From Cryobacterium sp. PH31-L1 (lineage in GTDB: Bacteria; Actinomycetota; Actinomycetes; Actinomycetales; Microbacteriaceae), in assembly GCF_030063145.1 (NCBI RefSeq), contig NZ_JASISM010000005.1:186001-250000 (forward strand): a DNA stretch of 64,000 bases, read 5' to 3'. Shown here in pieces: positions 1,827 through 51,123 of this stretch; position 1 is the first letter of the stretch, and every line of letters starts with the position of its first letter. The notes beneath the pieces were generated by a model. It was not told where the DNA came from. It made no database searches and was given only the letters and a program-made list of their open reading frames with translations. The position numbers were made by a program, and so were the translations under genes.

Positions 1827-1998
1827 GGCCTTCCAGACAAGCAGCGTGCCGAAGGATGCGTCGAGCGGCGCATCGTTGTTGATCCGGCGGGGGCCAGGCC
1901 GAATCGGTGCGCATCTTCACGCGTCAGGGTAGTAAATATTGGTGCTCTATCTGCGAGCGTATAGCGCCACGGCCAGTCACCCCCGTGGTGGGGGGATC

Positions 1999-2619: not shown

Positions 2620-2648
2620 ACCGTTCGTAAACTGCCGGGCCCACCTTA

Positions 2649-2686
2649 GGAAACCGGGACCACGATCTATCGTGGGCCCAGTTTCC
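2649..2686. terminator. Stem-loop between convergent genes
   Basis: Two 18-base arms (2649–2666 and 2669–2686) are complementary except for two mismatches and lie between the converging NTP transferase and glycosyltransferase genes. The innermost pairs must open to form a loop. There is no clear T-run, so a bidirectional terminator is inferred from position and stem strength. Confidence 0.5.
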
Positions 2687-2711
2687 AGGCTCGGGCCCGG
2701 AAATAGCGGGG

Positions 2712-4025
2712 CTAACGTCGGGCGGGCACCCGGGTGAGTGCCGCGTAGGCGCGCGACGCTCCGGACTGCAGGGTCAGGGATGCCGCGAGCGCGTCGAGGC
2801 GGGCGCGCGCGGAGCCGGTGAGGAGCAGCATCCGCTCGCAGGCCTCCCGCAGGCCGAGCACGGTCGCGGTGTTGGGCGGCAGAGACGTACCGAAGCCGGC
2901 GTCGTCGAGGGCGGTCGCCCCGGCGAACTGGTCGGTGGAGAACGGCAGCACGACGAGCGGCACCCCCTCGCGCATCGCCTCGGTGACCGAATTATTGCCG
3001 CCATGGGTCACGGCGAGGGCGGCATCCTGCAGCAAGCGCACCTGCGGCAGGAACCCGCGCACCAGCCAAGAGTCGGGGACGGGACCGAGCACGGTGGGGT
3101 CGGTCGCCCCGACAGCGAGAGCGACCCGCACCGGCAGGCCTCTCAGGGCGGCGGCAACGCGCGTAAGCACATCACCACGTACCGAGAGAAAACTTCCAAA
3201 GCTGACGTAGACCACGGGCAGGGAGTCTGAAGCCAGCCACGCCTCGACCTCGGGATCGACGGCTTCGGTGCGCACGGCCGAGCCGAGAAAGACGTGCGGC
3301 GACAGCGACATGGTGCGCTCGGCGGCGTGCAGCTCGGCCGGGTAGTTGAGCAGCAGCACGTCGCCGCACTCCTGGAAGGCGTCTCGGCTCGGCTTTGCCT
3401 GGGGGTCAAGCTCTCGCAGGGCGTCGTTCCACTGGGCGGTGAAGTCGTCGCGTACGGCCTCGCACTCGTCGTGGAGCAGGGCGAGTTCCGTGGCGGCGGG
3501 CGAGAACACGGCAGGCCAGGCCGGCGGGTAGCCGTAGACCTCGGTGCCAACCGGCAACGCCGACGGATGCCCGAGCACGACGTCGGCGTAGGGCACCTCG
3601 GCGCTGAGCAGCCCGAGCCGCGCGCTGAAAGCCAGGTGGTCGACGATGACTTGGTCCGGCTTCACCCGGGCGACGATGCGCTGCACCTCGCGGGCAATCT
3701 CCACCGGGTTGTAGAGCAGGTCGTTGCTGCGCGCCTCGGCTTGAAAACGCAGAGTGTCGACCATGCCGCGGCGGGTGGCATCGAAGAAGCCGCGCAGGGC
3801 ATCGTCTTCACCGACGGGCTGCTGTTCGGCCCGAATCGTGCCGGGGTTGGAACCGCGGCCTAGCTGCAGATTCTCCCGTTCGAATCCGAACGCGGTTACG
3901 ATGTCGGCCGTCGCGGGACCGGTCGCGACCACGACACGTTCGCCGGCCTGCGCCCAGGCGGTGCCAAGCGTGGCCAGCGGGTAGAGGTGCGAGGCGTAGT
4001 CGGGGCTGATGATCAGCAGGGTCAC
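2712..4025 (-). CDS. GT1 (UDP-glycosyltransferase/MGT-like) glycosyltransferase
   Basis: 437 residues with the GT-B architecture of family GT1. The C-terminal donor-binding region is clear: VYVSFGSFLSV, then VRGFLPQVRLLQDAALAVTH, then the HGG motif (THGGNNSVTEAMREG) and VLPFSTDQF. Such enzymes move a sugar from an NDP-sugar to a small acceptor such as a macrolide, carotenoid or lipid. Its start overlaps the stop of the upstream GT4 gene by 4 bp (ATGA), so the two are translationally coupled and probably act on the same glycoconjugate. The acceptor is unknown; there is no biosynthetic cluster next to it. Confidence 0.85.
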   Translation of the reverse strand: MTLLIISPDYASHLYPLATLGTAWAQAGERVVVATGPATADIVTAFGFERENLQLGRGSNPGTIRAEQQPVGEDDALRGFFDATRRGMVDTLRFQAEARSNDLLYNPVEIAREVQRIVARVKPDQVIVDHLAFSARLGLLSAEVPYADVVLGHPSALPVGTEVYGYPPAWPAVFSPAATELALLHDECEAVRDDFTAQWNDALRELDPQAKPSRDAFQECGDVLLLNYPAELHAAERTMSLSPHVFLGSAVRTEAVDPEVEAWLASDSLPVVYVSFGSFLSVRGDVLTRVAAALRGLPVRVALAVGATDPTVLGPVPDSWLVRGFLPQVRLLQDAALAVTHGGNNSVTEAMREGVPLVVLPFSTDQFAGATALDDAGFGTSLPPNTATVLGLREACERMLLLTGSARARLDALAASLTLQSGASRAYAALTRVPARR

Positions 4026-6277: not shown

Positions 6278-6412
6278 GCTGACTCCTCCCCGCGAAAACT
6301 AACGCGGATCGATCACGGCGATTCGGGCTCGCCGCCAGTGAACGGGGATCTGTATCGGCCATTTCAGGCCGAGAACGTCACGAATCCGAGCGTCTGTGCG
6401 GCCGGATCAGAT

Positions 6413-30846: not shown

Positions 30847-32526
30847 CTAAGGCAGCAGGCGGTCCCCGGCCTTTTTCGGCAGCCGGGCTGCCGCCGCGCG
30901 GGCGATTGCTGTCGCGGCTTCGTCGGCAACTGCGTCAAAGTCGACGCCGTTGATCGAATCAGAAACGGATGCTTCCGCTGCCGACCGTGCAGCTGCGGCA
31001 GCGGTCGCCGCCGAGGCACCAACCGATGGTGACGCCGCTGCTGAAGGCGCTGCCGCTGAAGGCGCGGTAGCCACCGAGGGCGACGCAGGGCCGGCCCCGG
31101 TCGAACGCGACGACGCACCAGCCGGAGCAGCAGGGGAAGCGGATGCGCCACTGTGCGCGGGCGCGGCGTCCCGCAGGGCGGCTCCGGCCGTTCCGCCGAG
31201 CAGCCCACCGAGGAGATCCTTGATACCGATTCCCATGGTGGAGCCGAGCACGGCGTCGACCTCGCTGAAGCCCGACGCAACGTTCTTCGAGAGCTGGCTG
31301 GCACCATCCGTTGAAATGACCGTGAGCTGGTCGATGTTGCCCATCGGGGCGGCGAGCTCGTGTGCGATCTGCGGAAGCATTTCGACCAGGCGCAGCTGGA
31401 TGAGCGCCTCGGACTGCTGGGCGACGGCCTCGGCCGAGAGTCGGGTGGCCGTTGCCTCTGCGGTACCGCGGGCAAGGATGGCGTCGGCCTCGGCCTGGCC
31501 CTCCGCGCGGGTGGCGTCGGCGTTGGCGACACGGCTGTCGCGATCGGCGGTGGCCTTGGCCACGGAGGCTTCGGCGGCCGCGATCGCGGTCACGCGGATG
31601 CGGTACGCGTCGGCGTCGGCGATTGCGTTAACCTCGGACTCGAGTTCGGCCTTACGCAGGCTGGCGCGTCGCTGGGCGGTGAGTTCCTGCTCCTGTACGA
31701 TCGCCTGCTGCGCCTTCGCCTCGGCGAGTGGCTTGGAGGCGGCAGCCTCGGCGGCGGCTTTGTCGGTGTCGAGCTGCAGAGCGGCCTTGCGCAGGGCGAG
31801 CGTGTTCTGCGCCTCAGCGATGGCCTGCTCGGCGGTGATCAGGGCTTCCTGTGACTCGCGATTGGCCACGTGCTCGGCCACCTCGGCTTGGCGGCGCACC
31901 TTGGCCTGCTCGGCACGACCGATGTCGCGGATGTAGTCGTTCTCGTCGGTGATGCCCTTGATCTCAAAGGAGTCGACGTCGAGGCCCTGGTTGGCGAGCG
32001 ATTCACGAGCCGTCGCGAGCACCGAGCTGCCGAGTTCATCGCGCTTCTGGATGACGGTCATGACGTCGGTCGCTCCGATCGAGGACCGCAGCGAACCGCT
32101 CAGTACCTCCTGAGCGAAGCCATCGATGTTCTTGTCCTGCCCGAGAAAGCGCTGCGCGGCAGCGCGAATCGCGGCTGGGTCGTCGCCGACCTTGACGATG
32201 GCGACGGCCTCGACCGAGAGCGTGATGCCGTTGCGGTCCTGCGCCACGGCAGTGATCTCAATCGCCCGGCTGCGCAGGCTGATCTTGAACGCCTTCTGAA
32301 AGAAGGGGGTGATAAACACGCCCTGTCCGTGCACGACGCGCTGGCCCGATTCCTCGAGCGTGGCACCATCGACGATGGTCTTACGGCTCTTCTTGCCGGT
32401 AATGATGAGGGCCTCATCCGGCCCTGCATTCTTATATATCGTCTTGGCGTAGATCAGGCCAATGAGCAGAACCACAACGATCGTGAAAATGATCCCGGGG
32501 ATCGGGCTGAACAGAAAATCGAGCAT
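30847..32526 (-). CDS. Flotillin-like SPFH/band 7 membrane scaffold protein
   Basis: 559 residues from the ATG at 32526, preceded by AAGGA. One N-terminal membrane helix (GIIFTIVVVLLIGLIYAK) is followed by the SPFH domain (VVHGQGVFITPFFQKAFKISLRS, FAQEVLSGSLRSSIGATDV, GLDVDSFEIKGITDENDY). Then a long Ala/Glu coiled coil (about 200–380), and an Ala/Ser/Pro-rich tail. Flotillins organise lipid microdomains at the inner membrane. The alpha/beta-hydrolase–caspase gene lies 239 bp upstream on the same strand, so co-transcription is possible but not shown. Confidence 0.88.
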   Translation of the reverse strand: MLDFLFSPIPGIIFTIVVVLLIGLIYAKTIYKNAGPDEALIITGKKSRKTIVDGATLEESGQRVVHGQGVFITPFFQKAFKISLRSRAIEITAVAQDRNGITLSVEAVAIVKVGDDPAAIRAAAQRFLGQDKNIDGFAQEVLSGSLRSSIGATDVMTVIQKRDELGSSVLATARESLANQGLDVDSFEIKGITDENDYIRDIGRAEQAKVRRQAEVAEHVANRESQEALITAEQAIAEAQNTLALRKAALQLDTDKAAAEAAASKPLAEAKAQQAIVQEQELTAQRRASLRKAELESEVNAIADADAYRIRVTAIAAAEASVAKATADRDSRVANADATRAEGQAEADAILARGTAEATATRLSAEAVAQQSEALIQLRLVEMLPQIAHELAAPMGNIDQLTVISTDGASQLSKNVASGFSEVDAVLGSTMGIGIKDLLGGLLGGTAGAALRDAAPAHSGASASPAAPAGASSRSTGAGPASPSVATAPSAAAPSAAASPSVGASAATAAAAARSAAEASVSDSINGVDFDAVADEAATAIARAAAARLPKKAGDRLLP

Positions 32527-32717
32527 GGAGTCCTTCCGAGGCGCAAGCCGCGTACGTCGTTTCGGCGATCCGGTCGAGCGACCTCGGCGCCGATCTGTTC
32601 CTCCAGTGTCGCAGGCCACAGCGCCGGATGCGAAAGTCGTCGAGACGCAGTGCCAGCCGGTGTGGCCATTTCGGCCTGCCAACCGTCGTTTCACGGCATC
32701 CGCCCTGGCTCATTTCC

Positions 32718-32740
32718 CTCCCGCGCAGTGGCGCAACTCC
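32718..32740. repeat. Dispersed GC-rich intergenic element, copy 2
   Basis: Starts CTCCCGCGCAGTGGCGCA and ends ACTCC; 21 of 23 bases match the element at 10760. It lies in the 239-bp gap between the caspase fusion and the flotillin genes. Nothing else is recognised in that gap except the flotillin ribosome-binding site. Confidence 0.6.
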
Positions 32741-32765
32741 TGCGACAGTCGCCAATAGCGGCGGG

Positions 32766-35066
32766 CTACCCGTCGATGAAGTCCGCAGCGGCGCGCAGGA
32801 ACGCGGCGGCCGCTAGGGCGCGAGCCGCGGCATCCGTTTCACGAACGCCAGCGCCATCCACCCCACCTGCCTCGCCAGCAGATGCCGCGAGCGGGTCGAC
32901 CCCGTCCGCGCCGCCCGCAGGCGCTACGCCAGCAGCCGCGTCGAGCAGGGCTGAGATAGCGCCCGGAATCGCTGCCGCGCCGGCCCCAAGGCCTGAAACC
33001 GAGCCCGACCCGGTGGCGCCGCCGCCAGCCGAGCCAACACCGCCACCCGCACCCGCGACAGCACCAGCACCAGCACCAGCCAGCGCCCCCAAAAACAGTC
33101 GCGACTTCGCCGCCCGCGGACCGTTGAAGTCGGGGTTCTGCCGCGGCTGGCTGGAGAATGCCTCCCGCACCTTGACCAGAAATTCCGCGTTGGTCAGGCG
33201 ATTCGCGCTCGGAACCACGAGCAGGCTGGCCGCAACGGTGAAGTCACCGTGCCCGCCGGTCTCATAGGCGACCTCGGTGGGCTTGCACGCGCTGAACAAC
33301 ACCTCCCGAGCCAACGCGCGCTTGCCGGCCCGGGCGGGCGTGCCTCGCTTCAAACGGTAGTTCCTGCTCGTCTGCTCATCGGGAATGATGAACCGCGCCC
33401 GCCGCCCGTGGGGAACGGATGCCGCACTCAGGTCCGCCACATCGGCCGGCTGCAGCTGCAACCGGCGCTGACCATCACCCGAGTGGCAGGAGTCGAAGAA
33501 CGCCGTGAGGCTGACGCCATCGGGCAGCTGGTCGAAGATCTCGCCCAGGTCGTCGTCGATGATCAGGTTGCCGTCGCGAAAGTCGATCGGGCAGAGCGCT
33601 TCGTCGTACTTCGTCTCCTCGTTGCCAGCCTCGGATTCGTCGCCATCGAGGTCGTCGACGTAGGTGCCATGGCCGGCGTACTGAAAGACCAGCACATCGC
33701 CGGCGACACTGCTGGCGACCAGGTCGAGCAGCCCGAGCAGAATGTTCTGCCGGGTCGCCTCCGCGTCGAGCAGGGTACGCACCGCGAACCCGGCGATGCT
33801 GAATTGCACAGCCCACGCCTCGGCATCCGCTACGCAGCCGTAGAGGGCATCGCCGCCCGGATAAGCGTTGATACCCACGCAGAGCGCGTGGTGAGTGCCG
33901 ACCGGCCGTGGCGACGACGGTGCGGGAGCAGGCCAGAGTTCGTCGCCACGGTTCCGGGTCGCCGGAAATGACTGGATGCGCGAACTGCCGGTGACCCGCC
34001 GAGCCACGCTGTCCATGGTGGAAATATCGTTGTCGAAACCGCCGTGACTGGTCGAGGTGCTGCGGCTGGTGAGCGGGCCGCTCGTGGTTTTCGACCAGAT
34101 GATGTCTGCCGCGCCGCCGACCCCGGGTGACCCACTCGCGCCGGAGAGCCCGAACAGCTGAGCCAGCACGGGGTCGGCACGCAGGCATTCCTCGAGGCCG
34201 AGAATGGGCGAGAATTCCTCGGGCTCGAACGAGGCCCGCACGAGGTAGAGCAGGGATTTTCCGTAGGCACCGAGGCAGGTGTCGTCGCGTTCGAGTTTCT
34301 CGGTCATGGTGAACATGGCGAGGGATTTCACGCCGTGGCCGACCAAGGGCACGATCTGCTTCTCGAAGACGTCGGTGCGCACGGCCGGCGCGAGCAGGCT
34401 GAACGTTTCGATGGCCGCCACTCCGGCCCTGAGCGCGGTCGGCAGAAAGAAGGAGTGAAAGATCGACCCGGCGCTGTGCCCGACGGCGTGCACGGTGATC
34501 GTGTCGGGATGGGCTGCGCAGTAGGCGCCGAGTGCTTCGGCGACGTAGCGTGCGCCGCCGTCACCGGCCGAGGCTGCCTCCGCCGAACGCTTCATCTGCC
34601 CCCAGATCGCCTGGCCCTGCCCGAATCGCGCGGCAAGTTCGAGTACCCGGTCTTTCGCCTCGTCGAGCCAGCCGCGGCGACCCTGGGCCCAGTCGCCGAC
34701 CGCGCTCGTGATGGCCCCGGCGAGGCTGGTCTCCCAGACGAAGTGGATGGGGTAGACGCCGTTCGACTTCCACCAGTCCACCTGGGTGGCCGCGATGCGC
34801 AGCCCGGATTGCTCATCGACGAGCCCGCCGTGGGCATAGAACACCACGGGAACGACGCCGCCGTGCTCGGCCACGAAGGCCGGCAGGTGGGTGGCGAAGA
34901 TGGCGTCGACGTCTTTCTTCGTGGTCGTGAATGCTCCGGTCGGCGAGAACTTGCCGGCGCTGAGGTTGACCACGTGCGGCCGCAGTTTGTCGAGTTCGCT
35001 CTGCGGCAACGGCGGCTGTCGTTTCGTGGACGGTGCCGGCTTCGTGGGGGTCGTCGGTTCGGGCAT
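32766..35066 (-). CDS. Alpha/beta-hydrolase–caspase (C14) fusion protein
   Basis: 766 residues. The N-terminal half (about 35–300) looks like a serine hydrolase: an oxyanion-type FYAHGG (76–81) and the nucleophile elbow AVGHSAGS (S198). A linker with Ser/Thr/Gly stretches (305–385) leads to a caspase/metacaspase p20 domain: HALCVGINAYPG (393–404), catalytic His466 in YAGHGTY, acidic loop DDLDGDESEAGNEE, and catalytic Cys527 in FFDSCHSGDG. The final 110 residues are a Gly/Ala-rich, glycine-zipper-like tail. No signal peptide, so probably cytoplasmic. Both catalytic pairs look intact. A SARP-type operator lies directly upstream, and a gluzincin gene is divergent. Substrates unknown. Confidence 0.85.
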   Translation of the reverse strand: MPEPTTPTKPAPSTKRQPPLPQSELDKLRPHVVNLSAGKFSPTGAFTTTKKDVDAIFATHLPAFVAEHGGVVPVVFYAHGGLVDEQSGLRIAATQVDWWKSNGVYPIHFVWETSLAGAITSAVGDWAQGRRGWLDEAKDRVLELAARFGQGQAIWGQMKRSAEAASAGDGGARYVAEALGAYCAAHPDTITVHAVGHSAGSIFHSFFLPTALRAGVAAIETFSLLAPAVRTDVFEKQIVPLVGHGVKSLAMFTMTEKLERDDTCLGAYGKSLLYLVRASFEPEEFSPILGLEECLRADPVLAQLFGLSGASGSPGVGGAADIIWSKTTSGPLTSRSTSTSHGGFDNDISTMDSVARRVTGSSRIQSFPATRNRGDELWPAPAPSSPRPVGTHHALCVGINAYPGGDALYGCVADAEAWAVQFSIAGFAVRTLLDAEATRQNILLGLLDLVASSVAGDVLVFQYAGHGTYVDDLDGDESEAGNEETKYDEALCPIDFRDGNLIIDDDLGEIFDQLPDGVSLTAFFDSCHSGDGQRRLQLQPADVADLSAASVPHGRRARFIIPDEQTSRNYRLKRGTPARAGKRALAREVLFSACKPTEVAYETGGHGDFTVAASLLVVPSANRLTNAEFLVKVREAFSSQPRQNPDFNGPRAAKSRLFLGALAGAGAGAVAGAGGGVGSAGGGATGSGSVSGLGAGAAAIPGAISALLDAAAGVAPAGGADGVDPLAASAGEAGGVDGAGVRETDAAARALAAAAFLRAAADFIDG

Positions 35067-35104
35067 GGCGCAGGTCCTCTCACGGGTGACGGGCGGGCGC
35101 TGCG

Positions 35105-35136
35105 ATTATGGCTCGCACGCGTTACTGCGGTGTTAC
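35105..35136 (-). promoter_or_regulatory. SARP-type operator and -10 for the hydrolase–caspase gene
   Basis: On the minus strand: GTAACAC (35136–35130), GTAACGC (35125–35119), 8 bp, then CATAAT (35110–35105). The heptamers start 11 bp apart. Direct heptamers at 11-bp spacing with the last one 8 bp before the -10 are the known SARP binding layout. A transcript starting near 35098 would have a leader of about 32 bases with AGAGGA before the ATG. Confidence 0.75.
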
Positions 35137-35149
35137 TGGGCCGCACACC

Positions 35150-35178
35150 TTGACAGACCCGGGGTTCGGTTGCATATT
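35150..35178 (+). promoter_or_regulatory. Sigma70-type promoter of the metallopeptidase gene
   Basis: TTGACA (35150–35155), 17 bp, CATATT (35173–35178), with the ATG 31 bp further on. The two GTTAC direct repeats (35121–35136) lie just upstream of the -35, so one SARP site could serve both divergent genes. Confidence 0.65.
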
Positions 35179-35209
35179 GCAGACACAAACGGATGCTGCG
35201 GGGGTCGCT

Positions 35210-36946
35210 ATGACGACTGGTGCGGAGGCGACCGGTGCGCAGCCGGCCGGAGACACCGTGTCGAGCAACCCGGCGCACAGCGGCCTGCAGGTGAGCCTGA
35301 CCGTGCTGGCCGAAGGGCCATTCACGAAGGCCAGGGCGGCTGGGCAGGACACGCTGCTCACGACGACCCTGCGAGTGCCGGTCGAGCGCATCGGGCCGGG
35401 GCCGCGCAGCGCCCGTTTCGACGTGATCGTGCGGCGCCCGGGCGAGAAGCCGTTCAGTCTCGAGCTCGGATCCCCCACTCCGCCGTGGATGATCGTCGAC
35501 GAGAAACCTCCCGACACGCTCCCCGAACTGTTGCAGGACAGCCGGTTCTTGGCGCAGCAGGTGTACGCGGTGGCGGCATCCACTCTCGCGCTGTTCGAGT
35601 CGACCCTGGGGCGTCGCATGGGCTGGGTCAATGGCGGGAGACTGACTATCAGCGCCTACGACCGGGTCTCCTATCGGGAGTCTGGTTACTATCGCGACGA
35701 CGGCCTGATTCGCTTTGGGCACAAGCGCGACGGCCGCACCAGCAAGGCGGTGCCGCTCGCCCTGTTTCGTGATCTCGTGGCGCACGAGGTGACCCACGCG
35801 ATCGTCGATGGCTACCGGCCCAAATGGGCCGACAGCCACGCTGAACTCGACCAGCTCGCCCTGCACGAAGCCATCGCCGACCTCGTTGCGCTGCTGTCGG
35901 TGTTCTCGACCCAAAGCCTGGTCGAGCAGCTGCTGACCCAGGCCGAGAACCTCGACCTCGCTACGCTCGACGAAGTCACCCTGCGCGATGACCTGTTTCG
36001 CCTCGGCGACGGATTATTCAAACGCGGCACGGCCAGGCCATCGCTAGCCGACGACATCGTGTCCGGCTGGCGCACGCTGTCCGACCCGCACCTGCGTGGC
36101 GGCGCAATCGTGCAGGTGCTGCTGCGCGTGGTGGCCCGGCTGTGGCTGCAGCGCCTTGACCTGCCCGGCGGCCGCTCGAGCCTGTACCAGGTGGCGCGCG
36201 CCGGGGCATCCGTCGGGCGCCAGGTCTTGAGCATGCTCATTCGCAGCCTCGGCTATATGGGGCCGGTCGATGTGACCTGGGAAGATCTGCTGCGCGGCAT
36301 TCTCGCCGCCGACCTGGCGGTCGTTCCCGACGACGACCTCGACTATCGGGGCACCGTCGTGACAGCTTTCGCCGAGGCGGGAATCGCGTTGCCGCCGGCC
36401 ACCGATCTCTCGGGCGTCGCGGAATTTGTGAACCTCCGCTACCCGGTTCGACTGGCCGCGCTGGCTTCGGATCCGGAGGAAATCGTGCGGTTTCTCTGGG
36501 AGAACCCCACCCTACTCACGGCGGCGAGAATCGACCCGACCCGGCCGATCGCCGTCGAACGGGTGCGCCCTACCCTGCGGGTCGGCCCCGACGGCTTCGT
36601 GGTGTCGGAGATCGGCGCCACCTTCACCCAGGAATTTCGACTGAGCGCCGCGGAAGCCCGCACCCTGGGCCTCGTCACTCGGGCACCGGTGTTTATTCGC
36701 GGCGGCGGCCAGCTGCGCTTCGACGAGGGCGGACGCCTCAGCTTCGCGGCCCTCAAACCGATTCTCGACCCTGACCGCCAGCGCGCCAAGCTGGCCGCCG
36801 CGCAGTTGGCCACCCGCCGAGCGGATGCCGCCGCTCCCGTCACCCCACCGGCCGCAGCCCCGCCCGTGCCGCAGCGAATTACCCGAAAAATCGCGGCGCC
36901 GGCCCCCGAGGTTTCGGCCGACCGCCGGCCGACCTTTCACCCCTGA
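35210..36946 (+). CDS. Gluzincin-type zinc metallopeptidase-like protein
   Basis: 578 residues from this ATG (GGGGG lies 6 bases upstream). The zinc site is HEVTH (H192, E193, H196), followed 24 residues later by HEAIADLVAL, which supplies E220 and D224 of the ExxxD ligand motif of gluzincins such as thermolysin. The region before (ISAYDRVSYRESGYYRDDGLIRFGH) suggests a beta-sheet edge as in those proteases. The C-terminal 350 residues match nothing I recognise; the last 40 are Pro/Ala-rich. No signal peptide is visible, so it may act inside the cell. It ends 3 bp before the convergent caspase gene. Confidence 0.8.
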   Translation: MTTGAEATGAQPAGDTVSSNPAHSGLQVSLTVLAEGPFTKARAAGQDTLLTTTLRVPVERIGPGPRSARFDVIVRRPGEKPFSLELGSPTPPWMIVDEKPPDTLPELLQDSRFLAQQVYAVAASTLALFESTLGRRMGWVNGGRLTISAYDRVSYRESGYYRDDGLIRFGHKRDGRTSKAVPLALFRDLVAHEVTHAIVDGYRPKWADSHAELDQLALHEAIADLVALLSVFSTQSLVEQLLTQAENLDLATLDEVTLRDDLFRLGDGLFKRGTARPSLADDIVSGWRTLSDPHLRGGAIVQVLLRVVARLWLQRLDLPGGRSSLYQVARAGASVGRQVLSMLIRSLGYMGPVDVTWEDLLRGILAADLAVVPDDDLDYRGTVVTAFAEAGIALPPATDLSGVAEFVNLRYPVRLAALASDPEEIVRFLWENPTLLTAARIDPTRPIAVERVRPTLRVGPDGFVVSEIGATFTQEFRLSAAEARTLGLVTRAPVFIRGGGQLRFDEGGRLSFAALKPILDPDRQRAKLAAAQLATRRADAAAPVTPPAAAPPVPQRITRKIAAPAPEVSADRRPTFHP

Positions 36947-36949
36947 GTT

Positions 36950-37801
36950 TCAGAACGCCGTGCCCCACGCCGTCGACTTTCCCGAAGCGGAGGCCTCCAG
37001 TTGCGCTCGCTGCGCAAACTTACGCCCGCGCAGCTGCGCGTTGACCTGCTTGATCACCTCACCCCGGCTCGAACCGGACTGCAGCCCGTCCAGCAGAAAG
37101 TGCGTGAACGCGCCGTTGTACCGGCCGTCGAAGCTGGCATCGGCGGCGGTCTGGTCGGCGCGGCAGGCGGCGAACAGCACCGGTTTCGCCGCGGCTCTGG
37201 AGGTACGAACCAGGTCGCGCAGGGTGCGGGTGTCAGCACCCTCGGCCTCGGCACCGTCCCGGCCGAGCGGTGTCGGCGGCGGTACGAAGCGCGGGCGCCG
37301 GTCGTCAAGCGTGGGCACGAGGTCCATGGCGCGCAGCCCGCTGCCGCTGTGACAGGTGTCGAGGATCACATCGAGCAGCACGCCTTTCGGCAGCCGTGCG
37401 AACAGGTCGTGCAGCTCGTCGTCGACGATGAGCGAGCCCGGGTCCCACGCGGCGCCGTTCTGCCGCAGGTCGTAGGTGGCGAAGGCCTCATCGACTTGGT
37501 CGACTTCGTCACCGTTCATATCGGGCAGCTGCGTGCCGTGGCTCGACATGGTGAAAACGATGTGATCGAGGTGCTCCCCCGGCGTGTTCGCCCGGTCGAG
37601 CGCCTCGGTCAACGCGCCAAACACCGCGTCCTTGGTCGCGGCCTGGTCGGTCAGAACGGTGATGCTCGCGTCGGCAAATCCGAAACACGAGGTGAGCAGC
37701 GTGCTCACATCGTTGGCATCGTTCACGCAACCATTCAGCCAGCTCGCCATCGGCAGATTCTCGAACTTGTTGATTCCCACGCACAGAGCGAATTGAGTCA
37801 T
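36950..37801 (-). CDS. Caspase-like cysteine protease (C14, metacaspase-type)
   Basis: 283 residues from the ATG at 37801, which has GAGGA at good spacing; an in-frame ATG at 37813 adds four. The p20 fold is complete: FALCVGINKFEN at the N-terminus, catalytic His88 in MSSHGTQLPD, an acidic calcium-site-like stretch GDEVDQVDEAFATYD, and catalytic Cys150 in LDTCHSGSG. FAACRADQTA and NGAFTHFLLDGLQ fit the p10 end. It is a stand-alone protease, likely cytoplasmic. The nearby hydrolase–caspase fusion shares both the fold and the upstream SARP-type operator, so the two are probably co-regulated. Confidence 0.87.
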   Translation of the reverse strand: MTQFALCVGINKFENLPMASWLNGCVNDANDVSTLLTSCFGFADASITVLTDQAATKDAVFGALTEALDRANTPGEHLDHIVFTMSSHGTQLPDMNGDEVDQVDEAFATYDLRQNGAAWDPGSLIVDDELHDLFARLPKGVLLDVILDTCHSGSGLRAMDLVPTLDDRRPRFVPPPTPLGRDGAEAEGADTRTLRDLVRTSRAAAKPVLFAACRADQTAADASFDGRYNGAFTHFLLDGLQSGSSRGEVIKQVNAQLRGRKFAQRAQLEASASGKSTAWGTAF

Positions 37802-37872
37802 GGTGGTCCTCATCCGTCAGAGCCGGTACAAGCGGATGCCGCGGGTGCCGGCTGCACACTCCGCGCGAACCG

Positions 37873-37905
37873 AGGGTAGCCGCACGGGCGTTACCGGCGA
37901 GTTAC
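37873..37905 (-). promoter_or_regulatory. SARP-type operator and -10 for the stand-alone caspase gene
   Basis: On the minus strand: GTAACTC (37905–37899), GTAACGC (37894–37888), 9 bp, then TACCCT (37878–37873). The heptamers start 11 bp apart as at 35105–35136, and the bases after the proximal heptamer (GTGCGGC here, GTGCGAGC there) also agree. The two sites define a shared box, GTAACNC. Confidence 0.75.
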
Positions 37906-37955
37906 TCGGACGGCGCTGCCACGGTTCGAAAGCATCCGTTTTGGGGGTGTCGGCA

Positions 37956-37984
37956 TTGACAACCACGCCGGTGCTGGCCATTCT
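37956..37984 (+). promoter_or_regulatory. Candidate promoter of the SARP gene
   Basis: TTGACA (37956–37961), 17 bp, CATTCT (37979–37984), 39 bp before the GTG start. The -35 is perfect, the -10 weak. The GTTAC repeats are 50 bp upstream, outside the usual SARP geometry for this direction. Confidence 0.5.
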
Positions 37985-38023
37985 GGGCGGTAGCAGCACC
38001 CGTCGTCTCATTGCGGGTCCGCT

Positions 38024-38815
38024 GTGTACTCTTTCGCGGATCGAGCACTCATGGGATTTTCAGCGGCAGGATTTTCAACGACAGAGGGCTGGGATTTTCG
38101 CGTGCTGGGCTACTGGCAGCTGCGCTACAACGGTGTACAGGTCGCGGTCGGCGCACGTCAGCAACGACTGCTCGCCGCCCTCGCCCTGCTGCACGCCCAG
38201 CCGCGGCACGTGCTCGCCGCAGTGCTCTGGCCCGACAGCCCCGAGCGTCAGTCGGCCGGAAACCTGCGGGCGAGCGTCTTTCGCATCTCGCACGAATTGC
38301 CGCGGCTCCTGAACGCGACTGACCCTCTGCAACTCGACGCCGCGGTGCGCGTTGACCTGCGCGCGGTACGGGAATTGATCACCGAGATCACCCTGAACGG
38401 CGCGGGGTCGGTGAGGCCCGAATCGATCGACTTGCTCCAGAAAGCCGACCTGCTGCCGGGCTGGTACGAGGAGTGGGTGATCGACCAGCAAGATCATCTA
38501 CTGAACCAGCGGGTCGATGCGCTGGAAGCCCTGGCCCGCGCCTATCTGGTCGCCGGCAGTTTCAGCCGCGCCCTCGGGGCAGCACGAGCAGCGGCGGTCG
38601 TCGACCCGCTGCGGGAGAGCGCTCAGCATCTGCTCGTACGCTGCCACCTCGCCGAAGACAACTACGCGTCGGCCGTGCAGGTGTACCGCAGTTTTCGGGC
38701 ACACCTGGGGCGGGAACTCGGCGTCGAACCGTCGGCCCATTTCGCTGAGTTACTCGGGCTGGATTCCGGAGTCATCGACACCCGCCTGCTCGTACGGGCG
38801 ATGAAAACCAGCTGA
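38024..38815 (+). CDS. BTAD-domain SARP-family transcriptional regulator
   Basis: 263 residues (GTG start; ATG at 38051 is an alternative). The N-terminal OmpR-like winged helix begins FRVLGYWQLRYNGVQVAVGARQQRLLAAL and includes LWPDSPERQSAGNLRASVFRISHELP. The bacterial transcriptional activation domain follows (about 120–250): LLQKADLLPGWYEEWVIDQQ, HLLVRCHLAEDNYASAVQVYRSFRAHLGRELGVEPS. SARPs activate promoters through 11-bp-spaced heptamers; such boxes lie upstream of both nearby caspase genes, so this is the likely local activator. No ATPase domain is attached. Confidence 0.88.
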   Translation: MYSFADRALMGFSAAGFSTTEGWDFRVLGYWQLRYNGVQVAVGARQQRLLAALALLHAQPRHVLAAVLWPDSPERQSAGNLRASVFRISHELPRLLNATDPLQLDAAVRVDLRAVRELITEITLNGAGSVRPESIDLLQKADLLPGWYEEWVIDQQDHLLNQRVDALEALARAYLVAGSFSRALGAARAAAVVDPLRESAQHLLVRCHLAEDNYASAVQVYRSFRAHLGRELGVEPSAHFAELLGLDSGVIDTRLLVRAMKTS

Positions 38816-38954: not shown

Positions 38955-39746
38955 TTAGAACGTCGTGAGGCCGTGCGCGCGAAACTGCTCGCGCACCCGC
39001 TCCTGCAGGGCGGCATCCGGCGGTTGCACACGGTGCAGCGGATACGGGATGGCCAGGCGGTTCCATTTGTCCTCGCCCATCTGGTGAAAGGGCAGCACCT
39101 CGACCCGGGAGACGTTGGGCCAGCGGGCCACGATCTCGGCGACGGCGTCAACGTTGTCGACGGCGTCGGTCAGCCCGGGAACGAGCACGAAGCGCACCCA
39201 GACGTTGGTGCCGCGCGCGCGCAGCCGGTCGCCGAAGGCGATGGTCGGTGCCAGCTCCCGCCCGGTCACCTCGCGGTAGGTGTCGGGCCTGCCCGATTTC
39301 ACGTCGAGCAGCACGAGGTCGGTGTGATCGAGCAATTCGTCGGAGGCACTCGCGCCGAGATACCCCGAGGTGTCGAGGGTCGTGTGCACGCCGAGCTCAT
39401 GGCACTCGGCGAACACTCGCGCGACGAAGGCCGGCTGCATGAGCGGCTCCCCGCCGGAGAGCGTCAGACCACCGCCGGTCGCCGTGAACACGGGCCGATA
39501 CCGACGGATGCGGGCGAGCACGTCGTCGATCGGCGTGAGTGCGCCGTCACGCATTTTCCAGGTGTCCGGGTTGTGGCAGTACTGGCAGCGGAGCAGGCAG
39601 CCGGAGAGAAAATAAGTCAGCCGGGTGCCCGGCCCGTCGACCGCGGTCACCAGTTCCCAGGAGTGCACGCTCGCGACCGTGCCGGCGCGATGGGCATCCA
39701 GTTGTTCATGGTGAAACTCAGTTTGGCCCAGCTGTATGGCCACCAT
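38955..39746 (-). CDS. pflA: Pyruvate formate-lyase activating enzyme
   Basis: 263-residue radical-SAM enzyme that installs the glycyl radical on PflB. The cluster motif is CLLRCQYC (C50, C54, C57), followed by LTLSGGEPLMQPAF. Family stretches VHSWELVTAVDGPGTR and LPFHQMGEDKW fit PflA. It starts 1 bp after the pflB stop, so the genes are co-transcribed. It works only without oxygen. The upstream gap to the SARP gene (38816–38954) shows nothing else. Confidence 0.93.
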   Translation of the reverse strand: MVAIQLGQTEFHHEQLDAHRAGTVASVHSWELVTAVDGPGTRLTYFLSGCLLRCQYCHNPDTWKMRDGALTPIDDVLARIRRYRPVFTATGGGLTLSGGEPLMQPAFVARVFAECHELGVHTTLDTSGYLGASASDELLDHTDLVLLDVKSGRPDTYREVTGRELAPTIAFGDRLRARGTNVWVRFVLVPGLTDAVDNVDAVAEIVARWPNVSRVEVLPFHQMGEDKWNRLAIPYPLHRVQPPDAALQERVREQFRAHGLTTF

Positions 39747-39747
39747 T

Positions 39748-42024
39748 TCAGACGCTCGTGTGGAAGGTCCGGCTGATCACGTCGAGCTGCTGCTCGCGGG
39801 TGAGTCGCACGAAGTTCACCGCGTAGCCCGACACCCGGATGGTCAGCTGCGGGTAGTTCTCAGGGTGTTCCATGGCATCTTCGAGGGTTTCGCGGTTGAG
39901 CACGTTGATGTTGAGGTGGTAACCGTGCGACAGCGTGTAGGCGTCGATCAGGCCGACCAAATTGGTGATCTGCTCCTCGGGCGTGTGGCCGAGCCCGGTC
40001 GGCACGACCGTGTTGGTCAGCGAGATACCGTCTTGCGCTTCGGAGTAGGGCAGTTTTGCCACACTCAGGGCCGAGGCGAGCATGCCGTGTGTGTCCCGGC
40101 CGTTCATCGGGTTAGCCCCCGGTGCGAAAGGTGCTCCGCCGCGGCGGCCGTCGGGCGTGTTTCCGGTCTTCTTGCCGTAGACCACGTTCGAGGTGATGGT
40201 GAGCACCGACTGGGTGTGCACGGCGTTCCGATACGTCGGGTGCGTACGAATCATGGCCATGAAGGTTTCGACGATGGTGACCGCGATGGCATCGACCCGG
40301 TCGTCATCGTTGCCGAACGAGGGGTACTCGCCGTCGATCACGTAGTCGACGATGAGGCCGGTGTCGTCTCGCACCGGGCGCACACTAGCGTATTTGATGG
40401 CGGCGAGGGAGTCGGCGGCCACGCTGAGGCCGGCCATGCCGCAGGCCATCGTGCGCAGAATGGTGTCGTCGTGCAGGGCCATCTCGAGGCGTTCGTAGGC
40501 GTACTTGTCGTGCATGTAGTGGATGCAGTTGAGTGCGTCGACGTAGGTTTCGGCGAGCCATTCGAGGCTCGCGAGGTAGGCGGTCCAGACAGTGTCAAAG
40601 TCGAGCACATCCCCGGCCAGCGGTGCGGTGACGGGGGCGATCTGCTCGCCGGTCAGTTCGTCGCGGCCGCCGTTGATGGCGTAGAGCAGCGCCTTGACGA
40701 CGTTGACCCTGGCACCGAAGAACTGCATCTGCTTGCCGACCCCCATCGGCGAGACACAGCAGGCGATCGCCGCGTCGTCGCCCCAGGCCTCACGAATGAG
40801 GTCGTCGGACTCGTACTGAATCGCCGAGGTATCGATGGAGACCTGCGCGCAGAACCGTTTGAATCCCTCCGGCAGGGCGTCGCTCCAGAGCACCGTGAGG
40901 TTCGGTTCTGGCGCTGGGCCCAGGTTGTACAGGGTCTGCAGAAACCGGAACGCGGTCTTGACCACGAGGGTGCGCCCGTCGAGACCGATGCCGCCGAGCG
41001 ATTCGGTCACCCAGGTCGGGTCGCCGGAAAACAGCTGGTCGTATTCCGGGGTGCGCAGAAAACGCACGATCCGCAGCTTGATCACGAGGTCGTCGATGAG
41101 TTCCTGCGCCTGGCTCTCGGTCAAGACGCCGGCCTGAAGGTCACGTTCGAGGTAGGCGTCGAGAAAGGCGCTGTTGCGGCCGAACGACATGGCCGCGCCG
41201 TTCTGCTCCTTGACCGCTCCGAGGTAGGCGAAGTACAGCCACTGCACCGCTTCGGTCGCGCTGGCAGCCGGCCGGGCAATGTCGAAGCCGTAGGACGCGG
41301 CCATCTGAACGAGTTCTTTCAGGGCCCGCACCTGCTCGGCGTTCTCCTCCCGGGAGCGGATGATGTCTTCCGTGCTCGGATGCTCGTCGAGCGCGGCGCG
41401 TTCGACCTTCTTAGCCGCGATCAGCGCGGTCACACCATAGAGCGCGACGCGGCGGTAGTCGCCGATGATGCGACCGCGACCGTAGGCGTCCGGCAGCCCG
41501 GTGATGAGGTGACTGTGCCTGGCCCGCTTGACGGCCGGCGGATACACGTCGAACACGCCGTCGTTGTGGGTCTTGCGGTACTTCGTGAAGATTGTTTCGA
41601 GCTCGGGCGAGACCGGGTAGCCGTAGGTTTCGAGGCTCGTCGCGACCATGCGCCAGCCGCCGTTGGGCATGATGGCGCGCTTGAGCGGAGCATCCGTTTG
41701 CAGGCCGACGATGATTTCGTTGGGCCGGTCGATGTAGCCGGGGGCGTGCGCGGTGATCGATGCCGGTGTCGTCGGGTCTACGTCGTAGACGCCGAGCGCC
41801 CGCTCCCGGGGAAACATGGCCGACAGGCGGGCCCACAGGCAGAGGGTGCGCTCGGTCGCCCCGGTCAGAAAGTTCGCGTCTTCGGTGAACGGCGTGTAGT
41901 TGCACTGAATGAAATCGCGCACGTCAATGCCGTGCTGCCAGGGTCCGGCGGTGAAACCGGCCCAGCCATCGCCGATGCTGGGAGCGGCGGTCGAGGCGGA
42001 ACGCGGGCTGTCGAGGAGGGTCAT
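39748..42024 (-). CDS. pflB: Formate C-acetyltransferase (pyruvate formate-lyase)
   Basis: 758 residues. It converts pyruvate and CoA to acetyl-CoA and formate under anoxic conditions. Catalytic cysteines C422 and C423 lie in [11 protein letters not shown]; the radical glycine G733 is in [13 protein letters not shown] near the C-terminus. [15 protein letters not shown] and DNEPSTEDI-like regions (here [16 protein letters not shown]) fit. Formate from this enzyme could be oxidised by the FdhF-like enzyme or exported by the OFA transporter. PFL is uncommon among actinobacteria, so it points to a facultative life style. Confidence 0.94.
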
Positions 42025-47580: not shown

Positions 47581-49071
47581 ATGATCGACGGAGACCGCGC
47601 CCCCAATGCAGACAGCTCCAGCAATCCCGACCTCGCCCCTACCCATCGGGGAACTCCGCTGCCCGACTATGTGAACGCCTGGGTTGCTGGGCAGCGCTGG
47701 TTCGGCAATAAGGGACTTGTGCCGGCTCTTCGCAGCATCGGGCATTTCTCGCTGGACTCGGTCGAGGCGTCAGTGACTATTCGCGTCGACCTCATGTTGG
47801 ATACCGCGAGCCTGGGCCTCACCCTGTACCAGCTGCCGACCACAGAACGAGTCTCGGAACTGCCCGGTGCGGCCAATGCCTTGATCACCGTGCGTAAACC
47901 CGGATCTGATCACGCGCGTTACATCTACGACGCGACCTATGACCCCGCGTTCGCAGCCGCTGTCCTCACCTTCATGGAGTTGCAGGGCGTGTCAAGCTCG
48001 AGCCCGCCAACATCCGATCGCTCCGCCGCGAGCGCGCGCGGCGACGACCTCCGACCGGGTTCAGCGGCCCCGCCGCAGACCGTGGTGGCATCCAGCCGCG
48101 TACTCAGCGGTGAGCAATCCAATACCTCCATCATCGTGGAGCGCACCGACGCTGCCGGAGCGCCGATATCGCCGATCATCTGCAAGGTGTTTCGCATCAT
48201 TCATGCCGGCGAGAATCCGGATGTCACGGTGCAGGCCGCCCTGGCCAGCGCCGGATCAGCCCGGATCCCGCAGCCGTTCGGCGCCATCCTCGGCCAGTGG
48301 GATGACCCCGCCGAACCGAGCAGCCGCGCCGTCGGGCACCTCGCCTTCGCCCAGGAGTTTTTACCCGATGCTCCGGATGCCTGGCGTACCGCCCTGGTCG
48401 CCGCTGCCGCCGGCACCGACTTCACGGGGCCCGCGTTTCGACTCGGGCAGGCCACCGCTGACGTGCACGCCGACCTCGCCCGCACCCTGCCGACCCTGGA
48501 TGCCTCCCCCACGGTGATCGCAGTCGAAATGGCCAAGATGCGCGTGCGCTGCGGTCAGGCCCTGGTCGAAGTGCCGGTTCTGGCCCCCTACCGCGATGCG
48601 ATCGAAGCGGTCTTCGCCCGGGCGGAGGCGGCAGCATGGCCACGACTGCAGCGCATTCACGGCGATTTCCATCTCGGCCAAGTACTCGATGTCGAGGACC
48701 GCGGCTGGGTGCTTCTGGACTTTGAGGGGGAACCGCTGCGCACCCTGCGCGAGCGCACAGAACCCGACATTCCGCTACGCGACGTTGCGGGCATGCTGCG
48801 CTCGTTCTCCTACGTGGCGGGGGCAATGGCCGAGACGACGGATGCCCTGCCCACGGTTTTCGAGTGGGCCACGGCCTGCCGTAGTGCCTTCCTCGACGGT
48901 TACGCCGAAAGGTCCGGCGTCAAGCTGGCCGAGCAGAGCGCGCTCCTCGACGCCTTCGAACTTGACAAGGCACTCTACGAAGCGGTGTATGAGATTCGCA
49001 ACCGCCCCACTTGGCTGCCCATCCCCCTCGCAGCGATCAAACGTCTGGTCGCGCCCTCGCGCATCGAGTAA
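47581..49071 (+). CDS. mak: Maltokinase
   Basis: 496 residues. It phosphorylates maltose to maltose-1-phosphate, the precursor for GlgE-type alpha-glucan synthesis. An N-terminal cap domain (YVNAWVAGQRWFGNKG) is followed by a kinase domain with SGEQSNTSIIVE, the catalytic loop RIHGDFHLGQVL (about 360) and the metal site LLDFEGEPLRTLRERTEPDIPLRDVAGMLRSF. treS, glgE or glgB are not adjacent, so partners must be elsewhere. Residues about 140–170 form a Ser/Pro/Ala-rich insertion. Confidence 0.88.
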   Translation: MIDGDRAPNADSSSNPDLAPTHRGTPLPDYVNAWVAGQRWFGNKGLVPALRSIGHFSLDSVEASVTIRVDLMLDTASLGLTLYQLPTTERVSELPGAANALITVRKPGSDHARYIYDATYDPAFAAAVLTFMELQGVSSSSPPTSDRSAASARGDDLRPGSAAPPQTVVASSRVLSGEQSNTSIIVERTDAAGAPISPIICKVFRIIHAGENPDVTVQAALASAGSARIPQPFGAILGQWDDPAEPSSRAVGHLAFAQEFLPDAPDAWRTALVAAAAGTDFTGPAFRLGQATADVHADLARTLPTLDASPTVIAVEMAKMRVRCGQALVEVPVLAPYRDAIEAVFARAEAAAWPRLQRIHGDFHLGQVLDVEDRGWVLLDFEGEPLRTLRERTEPDIPLRDVAGMLRSFSYVAGAMAETTDALPTVFEWATACRSAFLDGYAERSGVKLAEQSALLDAFELDKALYEAVYEIRNRPTWLPIPLAAIKRLVAPSRIE

Positions 49072-49203
49072 CGCTCCGATAACGCCTCGCGGGGTAGCTT
49101 GACCGCCAGTGGGCACTGGGACCACTTGCGGTCAAGTGCTCATTCCGGCACCGCCAATTCCGGCCCGTGCCAGTAGGGAACAGAGCACACAAGGAGCAGT
49201 TCC

Positions 49204-51123
49204 ATGGCAGAAAACAATTCCGGCCCTGGCGGGGACCAGAAATTCGTCAGTGAGGGTGAATTTCAGGCAGGAGAGTCGGCCTCCGGCATCATCTCCGGCG
49301 TCACCTTCGGCCCGACGGAAGTGGTCTACTACAAGGTCAACAACCTGGCGGTCTTCGAAGGTGACATCGTGCTGGGCACCGTCGCCGAGCTGGAGCAGAC
49401 TAAGGATCAGGCGAATCAGGACGACCGTCGCGCCCGGGCCGTCATCATCACCGGCGCGCGCTTTCGCTGGCCGAACGCGCAGGTTCCGTTTCAGATCAAC
49501 GCCGCCCTGCCCGACCAACAGCGAGTGCGGGACGCGATCACCCACTGGGAGGCGCGCACGCCTATCCGTTTTCCGGAACGTACCCCGGCCAATGCCGCGC
49601 AATTTCCGAACTTCGTCGAGTTCAGCGATGCCGGCGGATGCTGGTCGATGCTCGGTATGCAGGGTAACGGCATGCAGACCATCAGTCTGGGTACCGGCTG
49701 CACGAGCGGCAACGCAATCCATGAGATCGGCCACGCGGTCGGTCTCTGGCATGAACAGAGCCGCGAAGACCGCAACACCTTCGTAACCATCAACGTGGCC
49801 AACATCTCCCCGGGTATGGAGAGCCAGTTCGACCAGCACATCGTCGATGGCGATGACGTCGGCGGCTATGACTACGGCTCGATCATGCATTACCCGCGCA
49901 CCGCGTTTTCAAAGAATGGGCTGGAGACCATCACCCCGGTGCAGGCCGGAGCCCAGATCGGCCAGCGTACGGCCCTGTCGGCCGGTGACATCGCGGCGGT
50001 CAACTTCATGTACCCGCAGACGCCCAGGGCAAGTTCGAGCCCGGTCGTGTCGTGGGGACCGAACCGGCTCGATGCCTTCGTGCTCGGTACCAATCGTGCG
50101 GTGTTCCACAAGTGGTTCAGCGGAGCCTGGGGACCGTCGGTCACCGGCTACGAGAACATGGGCGGCATCGCCGAGAGTGTTCCGCAAGCCGTGGCGTGGG
50201 GCCCGAACCGGCTCGACCTGTTCATCACCGGAACCGACAGCGCGCTCTACCACAAGTGGTGGAACGGCAGCGCGTGGGGTCCGTCGGTAACGGGCTACGA
50301 GAACATGGGCGGCGTCATCCTCGGTGACCCGCGGGTGGTCTCTTGGGGTCCGAACCGGCTCGACGTGTTCGTCGTCGGCAGCGACCATGCGCTCTATCAC
50401 AAGTGGTTCAACGGGGCGTGGGGCCCGTCGGTGACCGGCTACGAGAACATGGGTGGCATCGTCGTCGGCCAGCCCGAAGTCGTCTCCTGGGGTCCGAACC
50501 GGCTCGACGTGTTCGTGATCGGCACCGACCGGGCGCTTTACCACAAGTGGTGGAACGGCTCAGCCTGGGGCCCGTCGCTCACCGGGTATGAACGTCTCGG
50601 CGGAGTCTGCACCTCGGCGCCGCGAGTGGTCTCGTGGGGCCCGAACCGGCTCGACGTCTTCGTCACGGGCACCGATGGAGCGCTGTACCACAAGTGGTGG
50701 AACGGCAGCGCCTGGGGTCCGTCCGTCAACGACTTCGAGCGGCTCGGCGGCATTGTCGTGGGCGAACCCGAGGCCGTGTCCTGGGGGCCGAACCGGCTCG
50801 ACCTGTTTGTGATCGGCACCGACAGTGCGCTGTACCACAAGTGGTTCGACGGCAACGGGTGGGGTCCATCGGCGCTCGGCTACGAGAACATGGGCGGCAT
50901 CGCGACCTCACAGCCGCGCGTGGTGTCCTGGGCACCGGGCCGGCTCGATGTGTTCCTGACCGGAACCAACAGCGCGCTGTTCCACAAATGGTTCAACGGA
51001 GCAGCATGGGGTCCGTCGCTCACCGGCTATGAGAGTCTAGGCGGCGTGATCACGTCGTTCGACGAGGCTGAGGCGCGTGCCGTTGCCGAGGGTTCAGACT
51101 CGCAAAACCGGGACACGGACTAA
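49204..51123 (+). CDS. Astacin-family metalloprotease with seven-repeat lectin-like propeller
   Basis: 639 residues. An N-terminal segment of about 85 residues precedes an M12A domain with the zinc signature [17 protein letters not shown] (H173, E174, H177, H183) and Met-turn GSIMHY (M228). From about residue 275 come seven repeats of 48–49 residues, each with the pattern [15 protein letters not shown](D/N)xALYHKWxNGxAWGPS, as in PLL/fucose-binding-type propellers. It should cut proteins while bound to sugar. No signal peptide is visible despite an outside-type architecture. AAGGAG precedes the ATG. Confidence 0.92.

Follow-up and report, generated by a model that had tools for sequence, protein, structure and literature searches.

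A SARP-type operator joins two caspases and a pro-astacin of Cryobacterium sp. PH31-L1 in a candidate protease cascade

What brings two caspases, a thermolysin-like metallopeptidase, a transcriptional activator and a flotillin together in the genome of Cryobacterium, a cold-loving soil bacterium, and which of them belong to one system? In Cryobacterium sp. PH31-L1 (genome size 3.66 Mb) these genes lie on contig C29 within a stretch of 64 kb, the whole of which is called the window here. A first-pass annotation had proposed an island of five genes in which a SARP would be the dedicated activator of a protease cascade and the flotillin its membrane scaffold. This interpretation was partly right: the link between the SARP and the caspases is kept, the scaffold is dropped and a pro-astacin is added. 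Our analysis suggests a SARP-gated intracellular cascade of caspases and a pro-protease that may serve regulated death or defence, a reading of the sequence to which we assign a probability of about 0.5.

All five reading frames were located where they had been placed before. In order, they encode a flotillin (30847-32526, minus strand, frame to 32529; Pfam Band_7 and Flot), a fusion of an alpha/beta-hydrolase (ABH)-like domain with a C14 caspase (32766-35066, minus strand, 766 residues; PF00656, E 5.4e-23), a leaderless thermolysin-like gluzincin with HEVTH and a downstream Glu (35210-36946, plus strand, frame from 35108, 578 residues), a stand-alone C14 caspase of the metacaspase/orthocaspase type (36950-37801, minus strand, frame to 37813, 283 residues; PF00656, E 4.5e-22) and a small SARP/BTAD activator (38051-38815, plus strand, frame open from 38024; PF03704, E 8.1e-16). 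The likely starts of flotillin (ATG 32526), gluzincin (ATG 35210), caspase (ATG 37801) and SARP (ATG 38051) were chosen by frame comparison. In this layout ABH-caspase and gluzincin diverge from one promoter region and caspase and SARP from another; caspase and gluzincin converge. A sixth gene, outside the coordinates of the first proposal, carries the same operator as the caspases and encodes a leaderless pro-astacin (M12A) with a DUF346 repeat domain (49204-51123, plus strand; PF01400, E 2.1e-49; PF03984, E 1e-31). Among 57 Cryobacterium genomes searched with a caspase alignment, 17 have caspase matches, and in 12 of these, PH31-L1 included, the five genes stand in the same order at the flotillin locus, some of them broken (these are called full-order genomes below; genomes are named by our own G numbers).

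To our knowledge, SARPs are otherwise known as activators of antibiotic clusters. The BTAD domain of the protein found here scores 59.1 bits against the PF03704 cut-off of 22.1, and the AfsR model matches residues 20-243, far below that model's cut-off. A short direct repeat was first seen in both divergent promoter regions of the intergenic alignment, and the predicted SARP operator is a direct repeat of 11-bp period, RTAAC-N6-RTAACG, placed 8-9 nt before a predicted -10-like hexamer. It precedes the caspase at 37888-37906 on the minus strand (AGTAACTCGCCGGTAACGC, TACCCT 9 nt on; 104 bp from ATG 37801 and 92 from an upstream start codon) in 12/12 full-order genomes, the ABH-caspase at 35119-35137 on the minus strand (AGTAACACCGCAGTAACGC, CATAAT 8 nt on; 70 bp from the start) in 11 of the 12, and the astacin at 49067-49085 on the plus strand (AGTAACGCTCCGATAACGC, TAGCTT 9 nt on; 136 bp from the start) in all seven genomes where the astacin gene was found. 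The form GTAAC-N6-GTAAC occurs twice in the 64 kb against 0.03 expected, and the relaxed form adds the third site. In 440,451 bp of the PH31-L1 genome RTAAC-N6-RTAACG has 3 matches, all in the window, while 15 simulations averaged 0.27 and never exceeded 1; when 21 spacings were tested, period 11 returned 3 matches, period 9 returned 1 and the 19 others none. The pattern was derived from the sites, so these counts test its rarity and placement and not its discovery.

In the SARP promoters described in PMC10936776 the repeats are spaced by 11 or 22 bp, and 8 bp separate the final repeat from the -10. The antibiotic-cluster regulators treated there and in PMC5930380 thus resemble the SARP studied here in the BTAD domain and in direct repeats of 11 bp placed 8-9 nt ahead of a -10-like hexamer, but the predicted targets here are proteases, not biosynthetic genes. 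The SARP gene itself has a sigma70-like promoter at 37956-37984 on the plus strand (TTGACA-N17-CATTCT), whose -35 is present throughout the intergenic alignments and which did not pass a generic sigma70 scan. The predicted control of the two caspases by the SARP is well supported by these specific, shared and conserved operators. The idea of a dedicated activator needs to be qualified: the SARP is not exclusive to the cassette, and the gluzincin has a sigma70-like promoter of its own.

The operator can also be followed where the protease behind it has changed. In G003 and G790 a subtilisin gene, divergent to the gluzincin, occupies the position where the ABH-caspase stands in other genomes, and a triple repeat precedes it. 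The SARP lies beside the flotillin without any caspase match in four genomes, and in two of them (G799 and G017) the repeat precedes a gene for a hemopexin-M12 metallopeptidase. The one full-order genome without the ABH-caspase operator, G018, has lost it together with the gluzincin start, and the operator is present at the ABH-caspase remnant of G806; in the decayed G015 this operator is absent and only the shorter GTAAC-N6-GTAAC stands before the caspase. In G811 the ABH-caspase operator has expanded into a longer tandem array of 11-bp units. The SARP tree, built with 9 of the 12 full-order genomes since the three with a stop in the SARP were left out, has three supported groups, namely the four SARP-only genomes, G003 with G790, and the full-order genomes.

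The two caspases at this locus are the only PF00656 matches in the whole genome. His88/Cys150 and D28/D148 of the stand-alone caspase are invariant in 14/14 sequences and C25 in 13/14, and the protein matches the metacaspase-1 structure in the PDB (E 3.3e-27). In the fusion, His466/Cys527 and the GHSAGS motif are invariant in the 11/11 orthologues aligned, and Ser198 and His341 in 8 sequences, two of them 47-50% identical. The ABH half has no Pfam family of its own, and its assignment as a hydrolase rests on the conserved GHSAGS motif. The earlier statements that the proteases are of several classes and that the catalytic residues of every enzyme are intact were both borne out, the residues being invariant across the aligned orthologues. 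Moreover, both caspases have Cys-x-x-Asp and Asp-x-Cys, which were equated by eye with the metacaspase S1 pocket (C25/D28/D148 in the caspase and C411/D414/D525 in the ABH-caspase); the counterparts in TbMCA2 are Cys92/Asp95/Asp211 (PMC4357240, PMC6426788). According to the same two sources, metacaspases and orthocaspases cleave after basic residues, for which the two S1-pocket Asp are important. The ABH-caspases, distant relatives too, have a similar C-terminal tail past a variable linker (FLRAAADFI type; window 32766-32830).

Pairwise ratios of non-synonymous to synonymous substitution (dN/dS) indicate purifying selection on all three enzymes, with medians of 0.141 for the gluzincin (n=9), 0.090 for the caspase (n=9) and 0.132 for the ABH-caspase (n=11); the comparison genes gave 0.080 (flotillin, n=9) and 0.074 (acsA, n=7).

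The astacin offers a possible substrate for these caspases. Its catalytic domain scores 168 bits against a cut-off of 22.5, and a FEGDI latency motif and an invariant RAR-[AG] junction (here DDRRAR-A) precede this domain in 7/7 astacins. A FEGDI-type motif is described as the latency motif of animal astacin propeptides (PMC9848320). The basic-residue cleavage of metacaspases, the S1 Asp of the caspases and the RAR junction taken together lead us to infer that a caspase may activate the pro-astacin. With astacins of M12A the protein shares PF01400 and the FXGDI latency motif; it differs in its DUF346 repeats, in its SARP-type operator and in that no signal peptide was seen by hydropathy (maximum 19-residue value of 0.86 in the first 60 residues). 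In fact, none of six proteases tested in this way has a leader-like hydrophobic N-terminus, the highest 19-residue mean being 1.45 against 2.69 for the flotillin. Seven of the 12 full-order genomes have the astacin close to the locus (G000, G013, G014, G812, G792, G811 and, in two frames, G796); it was not found in two decayed genomes or in six cassette-free genomes fetched there. Astacins (window 51090-51123) and the hemopexin-M12 proteins of other genomes have an acidic C-terminal end, DTD or DTN, in common.

The gluzincin is the convergent partner of the caspase. The frame 35108-36946 matches no Pfam family at 1e-3, and the sub-threshold match to M4 (E 0.023) reaches 15.6 bits, the cut-off being 22.4. 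All of 13 gluzincins keep HEVTH and the downstream Glu (here within HEAIAD), and HExxH with Glu is kept in 19/19 when distant relatives are included. The protein is thermolysin-like by motif and, with low confidence, by its structure model. It shares HExxH and the downstream Glu ligand with the thermolysin-like M4/M36 peptidases, but it lacks a leader, stays below the Pfam M4 cut-off and has an extra C-terminal region with a conserved short tail. Such a tail, after a variable linker, is similar in many gluzincins (EPFAFVHR-like in plasmid members and PTFHP in Cryobacterium; window 36900-36946), and it could be docking or autoinhibitory. The promoter of the gene is sigma70-like and not a SARP operator (TTGACA-N17-CATATT, 35150-35178, plus strand); it was the only match in the region scanned, with 0.1 expected, and its TTGACA is present in 10/10 genomes examined.

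Distant relatives of the gluzincin are carried on plasmids. A sample of 396 genomes of the phylum included 4 with the gluzincin, PH31-L1 among them, and relatives of about 25-32% identity are on 43 plasmid records, 22 of them typed as conjugative; a pattern scan of viral contigs found none. From the 43 records we inspected 17, selected for rank and variety; some of these are not independent of one another, and since H10 is unannotated they gave 16 neighbourhoods. A gene of the metallo-beta-lactamase (MBL) fold comes next after the gluzincin in all 16. Matches to LmuA and Avs1a models occur among these genes: 15 of them match the PADLOC LmuA model at 1e-9 or better, and the sixteenth matches Pfam Lactamase_B at 4.8e-8. 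By annotation, a DUF2235/Tle1-like or patatin-like phospholipase is present in 10/16, and a CBASS cyclase lies within the stretch shown in 3/16. In one, an Isosphaeraceae plasmid, a caspase stands two genes upstream of the gluzincin, and two plasmid gluzincins are annotated as fused to a subtilisin. The gluzincins scanned had no match in the PADLOC library. Its plasmid neighbours put the gluzincin family in a conflict-like setting. Next to the Cryobacterium gluzincin no MBL gene was seen, and the caspase stands there instead. A defence-like setting is seen for the distant plasmid relatives; at the locus itself, no further defence gene was seen among the window proteins scanned (18 with Pfam and five with PADLOC). 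Other neighbours were also noted: the distant gluzincins of the same-family genomes G262 and G305 adjoin a gene read by eye as a tyrosinase, an annotated tyrosinase gene adjoins the gluzincin on a Rhizobium gallicum plasmid, and in G107 (1825-6314) a distant gluzincin is clustered with an MBL protein and a matrixin/astacin-like protein.

The distribution of the genes separates the flotillin from the rest. Flotillin is present in 49 of the same 57 genomes, the operator was found before it in 0/11 genomes tested, and it stays at the locus where the caspases are absent. We therefore rejected it as a part of the system and regard it as a near-universal, genus-wide neighbour. Twelve flotillin loci without the cassette were inspected, besides those of G003 and G790: in G799, G017, G016 and G803 the SARP directly adjoins the flotillin; in G009 and G804 the flotillin lies near acsA without a SARP; G806 has a fragment of the ABH-caspase; and in G023, G008, G024, G021 and G007 no other query gene lies within 20 kb. 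The flotillin tree places G003 and G790 next to the cassette clade, and G009 and G804 within it (91% with G800), the latter as expected after loss; a fork holding the whole cassette clade is not among the listed forks with support of at least 80 (forks of at most 18 sequences). The co-occurrence of the five genes in the same order, in 12 of the 57 genomes, is restricted to a clade. The remaining five of the 17 genomes with caspase matches comprise G003 and G790, where SARP, caspase and gluzincin lie elsewhere, the decayed G015 and G020, and G008, which has only a CHAT-ABH-caspase protein.

Outside Cryobacterium, one scan that reached close relatives only (19 loci) returned two Sinomonas genomes with nothing but the convergent caspase-gluzincin pair, beside other genes (identity 52% for the caspase and 51-52% for the gluzincin), and Humibacillus, where the caspase forms the last part of a DUF7379-DUF7363-CHAT-caspase protein. 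The five-gene island describes PH31-L1 correctly, yet the unit that is conserved is a smaller core, the caspase and the gluzincin in convergent orientation. Past the SARP lie genes that we named pfl, pflA, acsA and ocd from a reading of their sequences by eye, without a family scan. Those read as pyruvate formate-lyase and its activase (window 38955-42024) are broken or missing in G726, G800, G010 and G796; this decay of neighbouring genes in several related genomes indicates that the region is labile in general.

How does this set compare with known caspase systems? Prokaryotic defence caspases of known role are described in CRISPR, gasdermin, NLR, Thoeris and Canu circuits, and caspase-activated pro-nuclease systems exist (PMC12799240). 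Canu and the nuclease-protease pairs of Hachiman, AVAST and Lamassu, as presented in that source, resemble our locus in being multi-gene loci with a presumed protease-activated pro-enzyme, here around caspases, and the MBL genes beside the plasmid gluzincins, which match LmuA and Avs1a, extend the likeness. Canu is described there with an adjacent MBL-fold pro-nuclease, whereas here the 18 window proteins scanned include no MBL family, the part of the pro-enzyme would fall to a protease (the pro-astacin) and control is by a SARP-type operator. The pairing of ABH and caspase is known in conflict systems, among them the VMAP-ternary and related ones where an alpha/beta-hydrolase accompanies the caspase (PMC7159879); here a putative ABH domain is fused to the caspase, and relatives in G008, G630 and Humibacillus have CHAT and DUF7363 in addition (in Humibacillus also DUF7379). 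The locus differs from VMAP-ternary systems in that the PH31-L1 genome has no CHAT match and the window proteins scanned include no VMAP, MoxR or vWA. In the five locus proteins scanned, PADLOC recognises nothing but the caspase domains, and the two caspases differ from the EACC1 type, scoring 33 and 17.1 bits with the EACC1-associated model against its cut-off of 140.

We propose that the active SARP would recruit RNA polymerase at once to the promoters of the caspase, the ABH-caspase and the pro-astacin. The caspases would cut after Arg or Lys, as metacaspases and orthocaspases do, and would mature the pro-astacin at its RAR-A/G junction, releasing the latency imposed by FEGDI, while the ABH domain may act on lipids. 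The constitutive gluzincin would be permanently at hand as the partner of the caspase and would either process or restrain it. Protein and membrane of the cell would be destroyed, with regulated death or growth arrest as the outcome; phage or severe stress would be the most likely trigger. The protease cascade of the first-pass annotation hence remains plausible in a changed form, with a pro-astacin that has a latency motif and an invariant RAR junction, but without the flotillin as membrane scaffold. More tentatively, the set could be a new form of regulated cell death in bacteria: a SARP would switch on Arg/Lys-specific caspases and, along with them, leaderless pro-proteases that replace one another between lineages (astacin, subtilisin or hemopexin metallopeptidase), in a caspase-to-metalloprotease cascade with a constitutive thermolysin-like partner.

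Several observations weigh against such a cascade. Within the full-order genomes, an in-frame stop interrupts the SARP in 3/12 (G018, G812 and G786), 3/12 (G018, G786 and G796) have a truncated or broken gluzincin, and both caspases are free of stops in 12/12 (that of G786 matches only to residue 264 of 287). The parts are therefore not strictly interdependent, and the caspases either outlive their controls for a while or have other uses. The caspase promoter of G003 and G790 has no repeat, none was found in the stretches fetched of the SARP-only genomes G016 and G803, and the operator was sought in about 12% of the genome. For 5/12 full-order genomes (G018, G010, G786, G800 and G726) no astacin was found in the stretches fetched. 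The structure model of the ABH half gave no significant fold match, and the absence of leaders was judged by hydropathy, not with a dedicated predictor. Finally, astacin, hemopexin and DUF346 domains are usually extracellular.

This last point favours a nutritional or antagonistic exoprotease regulon, in which the proteases would leave through lysis of a subpopulation or unrecognised export and digest outside protein or competitors. The astacin with DUF346, the hemopexin-M12 protein and the subtilisin are all of domain types common outside cells, and the putative tyrosinases beside the gluzincins of G262 and G305 would agree with it. Caspases, however, are intracellular enzymes, the six proteases tested have no leader-like N-terminus and, on plasmids, the gluzincin relatives are accompanied by genes for MBL proteins, phospholipases and, in 3/16, CBASS, so that we consider this explanation unlikely. 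To much the same degree improbable is a regulon for stress proteolysis without death, where the SARP would induce clearance of damaged protein, for example under cold or oxidative stress. The purifying selection on all three enzymes is in its favour, and a study that reportedly links a cyanobacterial pseudo-orthocaspase to oxidative stress was counted for it as well; the patchy distribution (17/57 genomes) with repeated decay is not, a zymogen with a latency motif would be unusual for house-cleaning, and ABH-caspase pairs are otherwise known from the conflict systems of PMC7159879.

A true anti-phage system on the pattern of Canu, where the pro-astacin or the ABH domain would be the pro-enzyme effector instead of the nuclease, is a narrower form of the SARP-gated cascade and its odds overlap with those of the latter; on its own we hold it to be rather doubtful. 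The existence of caspase-activated pro-nucleases (PMC12799240), the LmuA/Avs1a-like MBL genes adjoining the plasmid gluzincins and the CBASS cyclases near three of these speak for it. Nevertheless, the window proteins scanned include no MBL gene, PADLOC recognises nothing beyond the caspase domains in the five proteins scanned, the pattern scan of viral contigs yielded no gluzincin relative, and a transcription factor would be slow as a sensor of phage. As for unrelated genes that are merely adjacent, flotillin and SARP do occur without caspases, but the shared rare operator largely refutes a chance neighbourhood; moreover, the convergent caspase-gluzincin pair recurs at another locus in Sinomonas and a caspase lies two genes from the gluzincin on the Isosphaeraceae plasmid. 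We regard such a coincidence as very improbable.

The SARP-gated cascade would place two caspases and a dormant metalloprotease under one transcriptional switch with a readable operator, which makes the function directly testable. If this is true, deletion or over-expression of the single regulator should silence or induce the set as a whole. With the operator sequence in hand, further members can be sought in Cryobacterium genomes. Through the gluzincin family the chromosomal set is connected with plasmid modules, some of which lie next to CBASS, and the exchange of protease classes behind the same operator suggests that it is the cascade, rather than one enzyme, that is kept.

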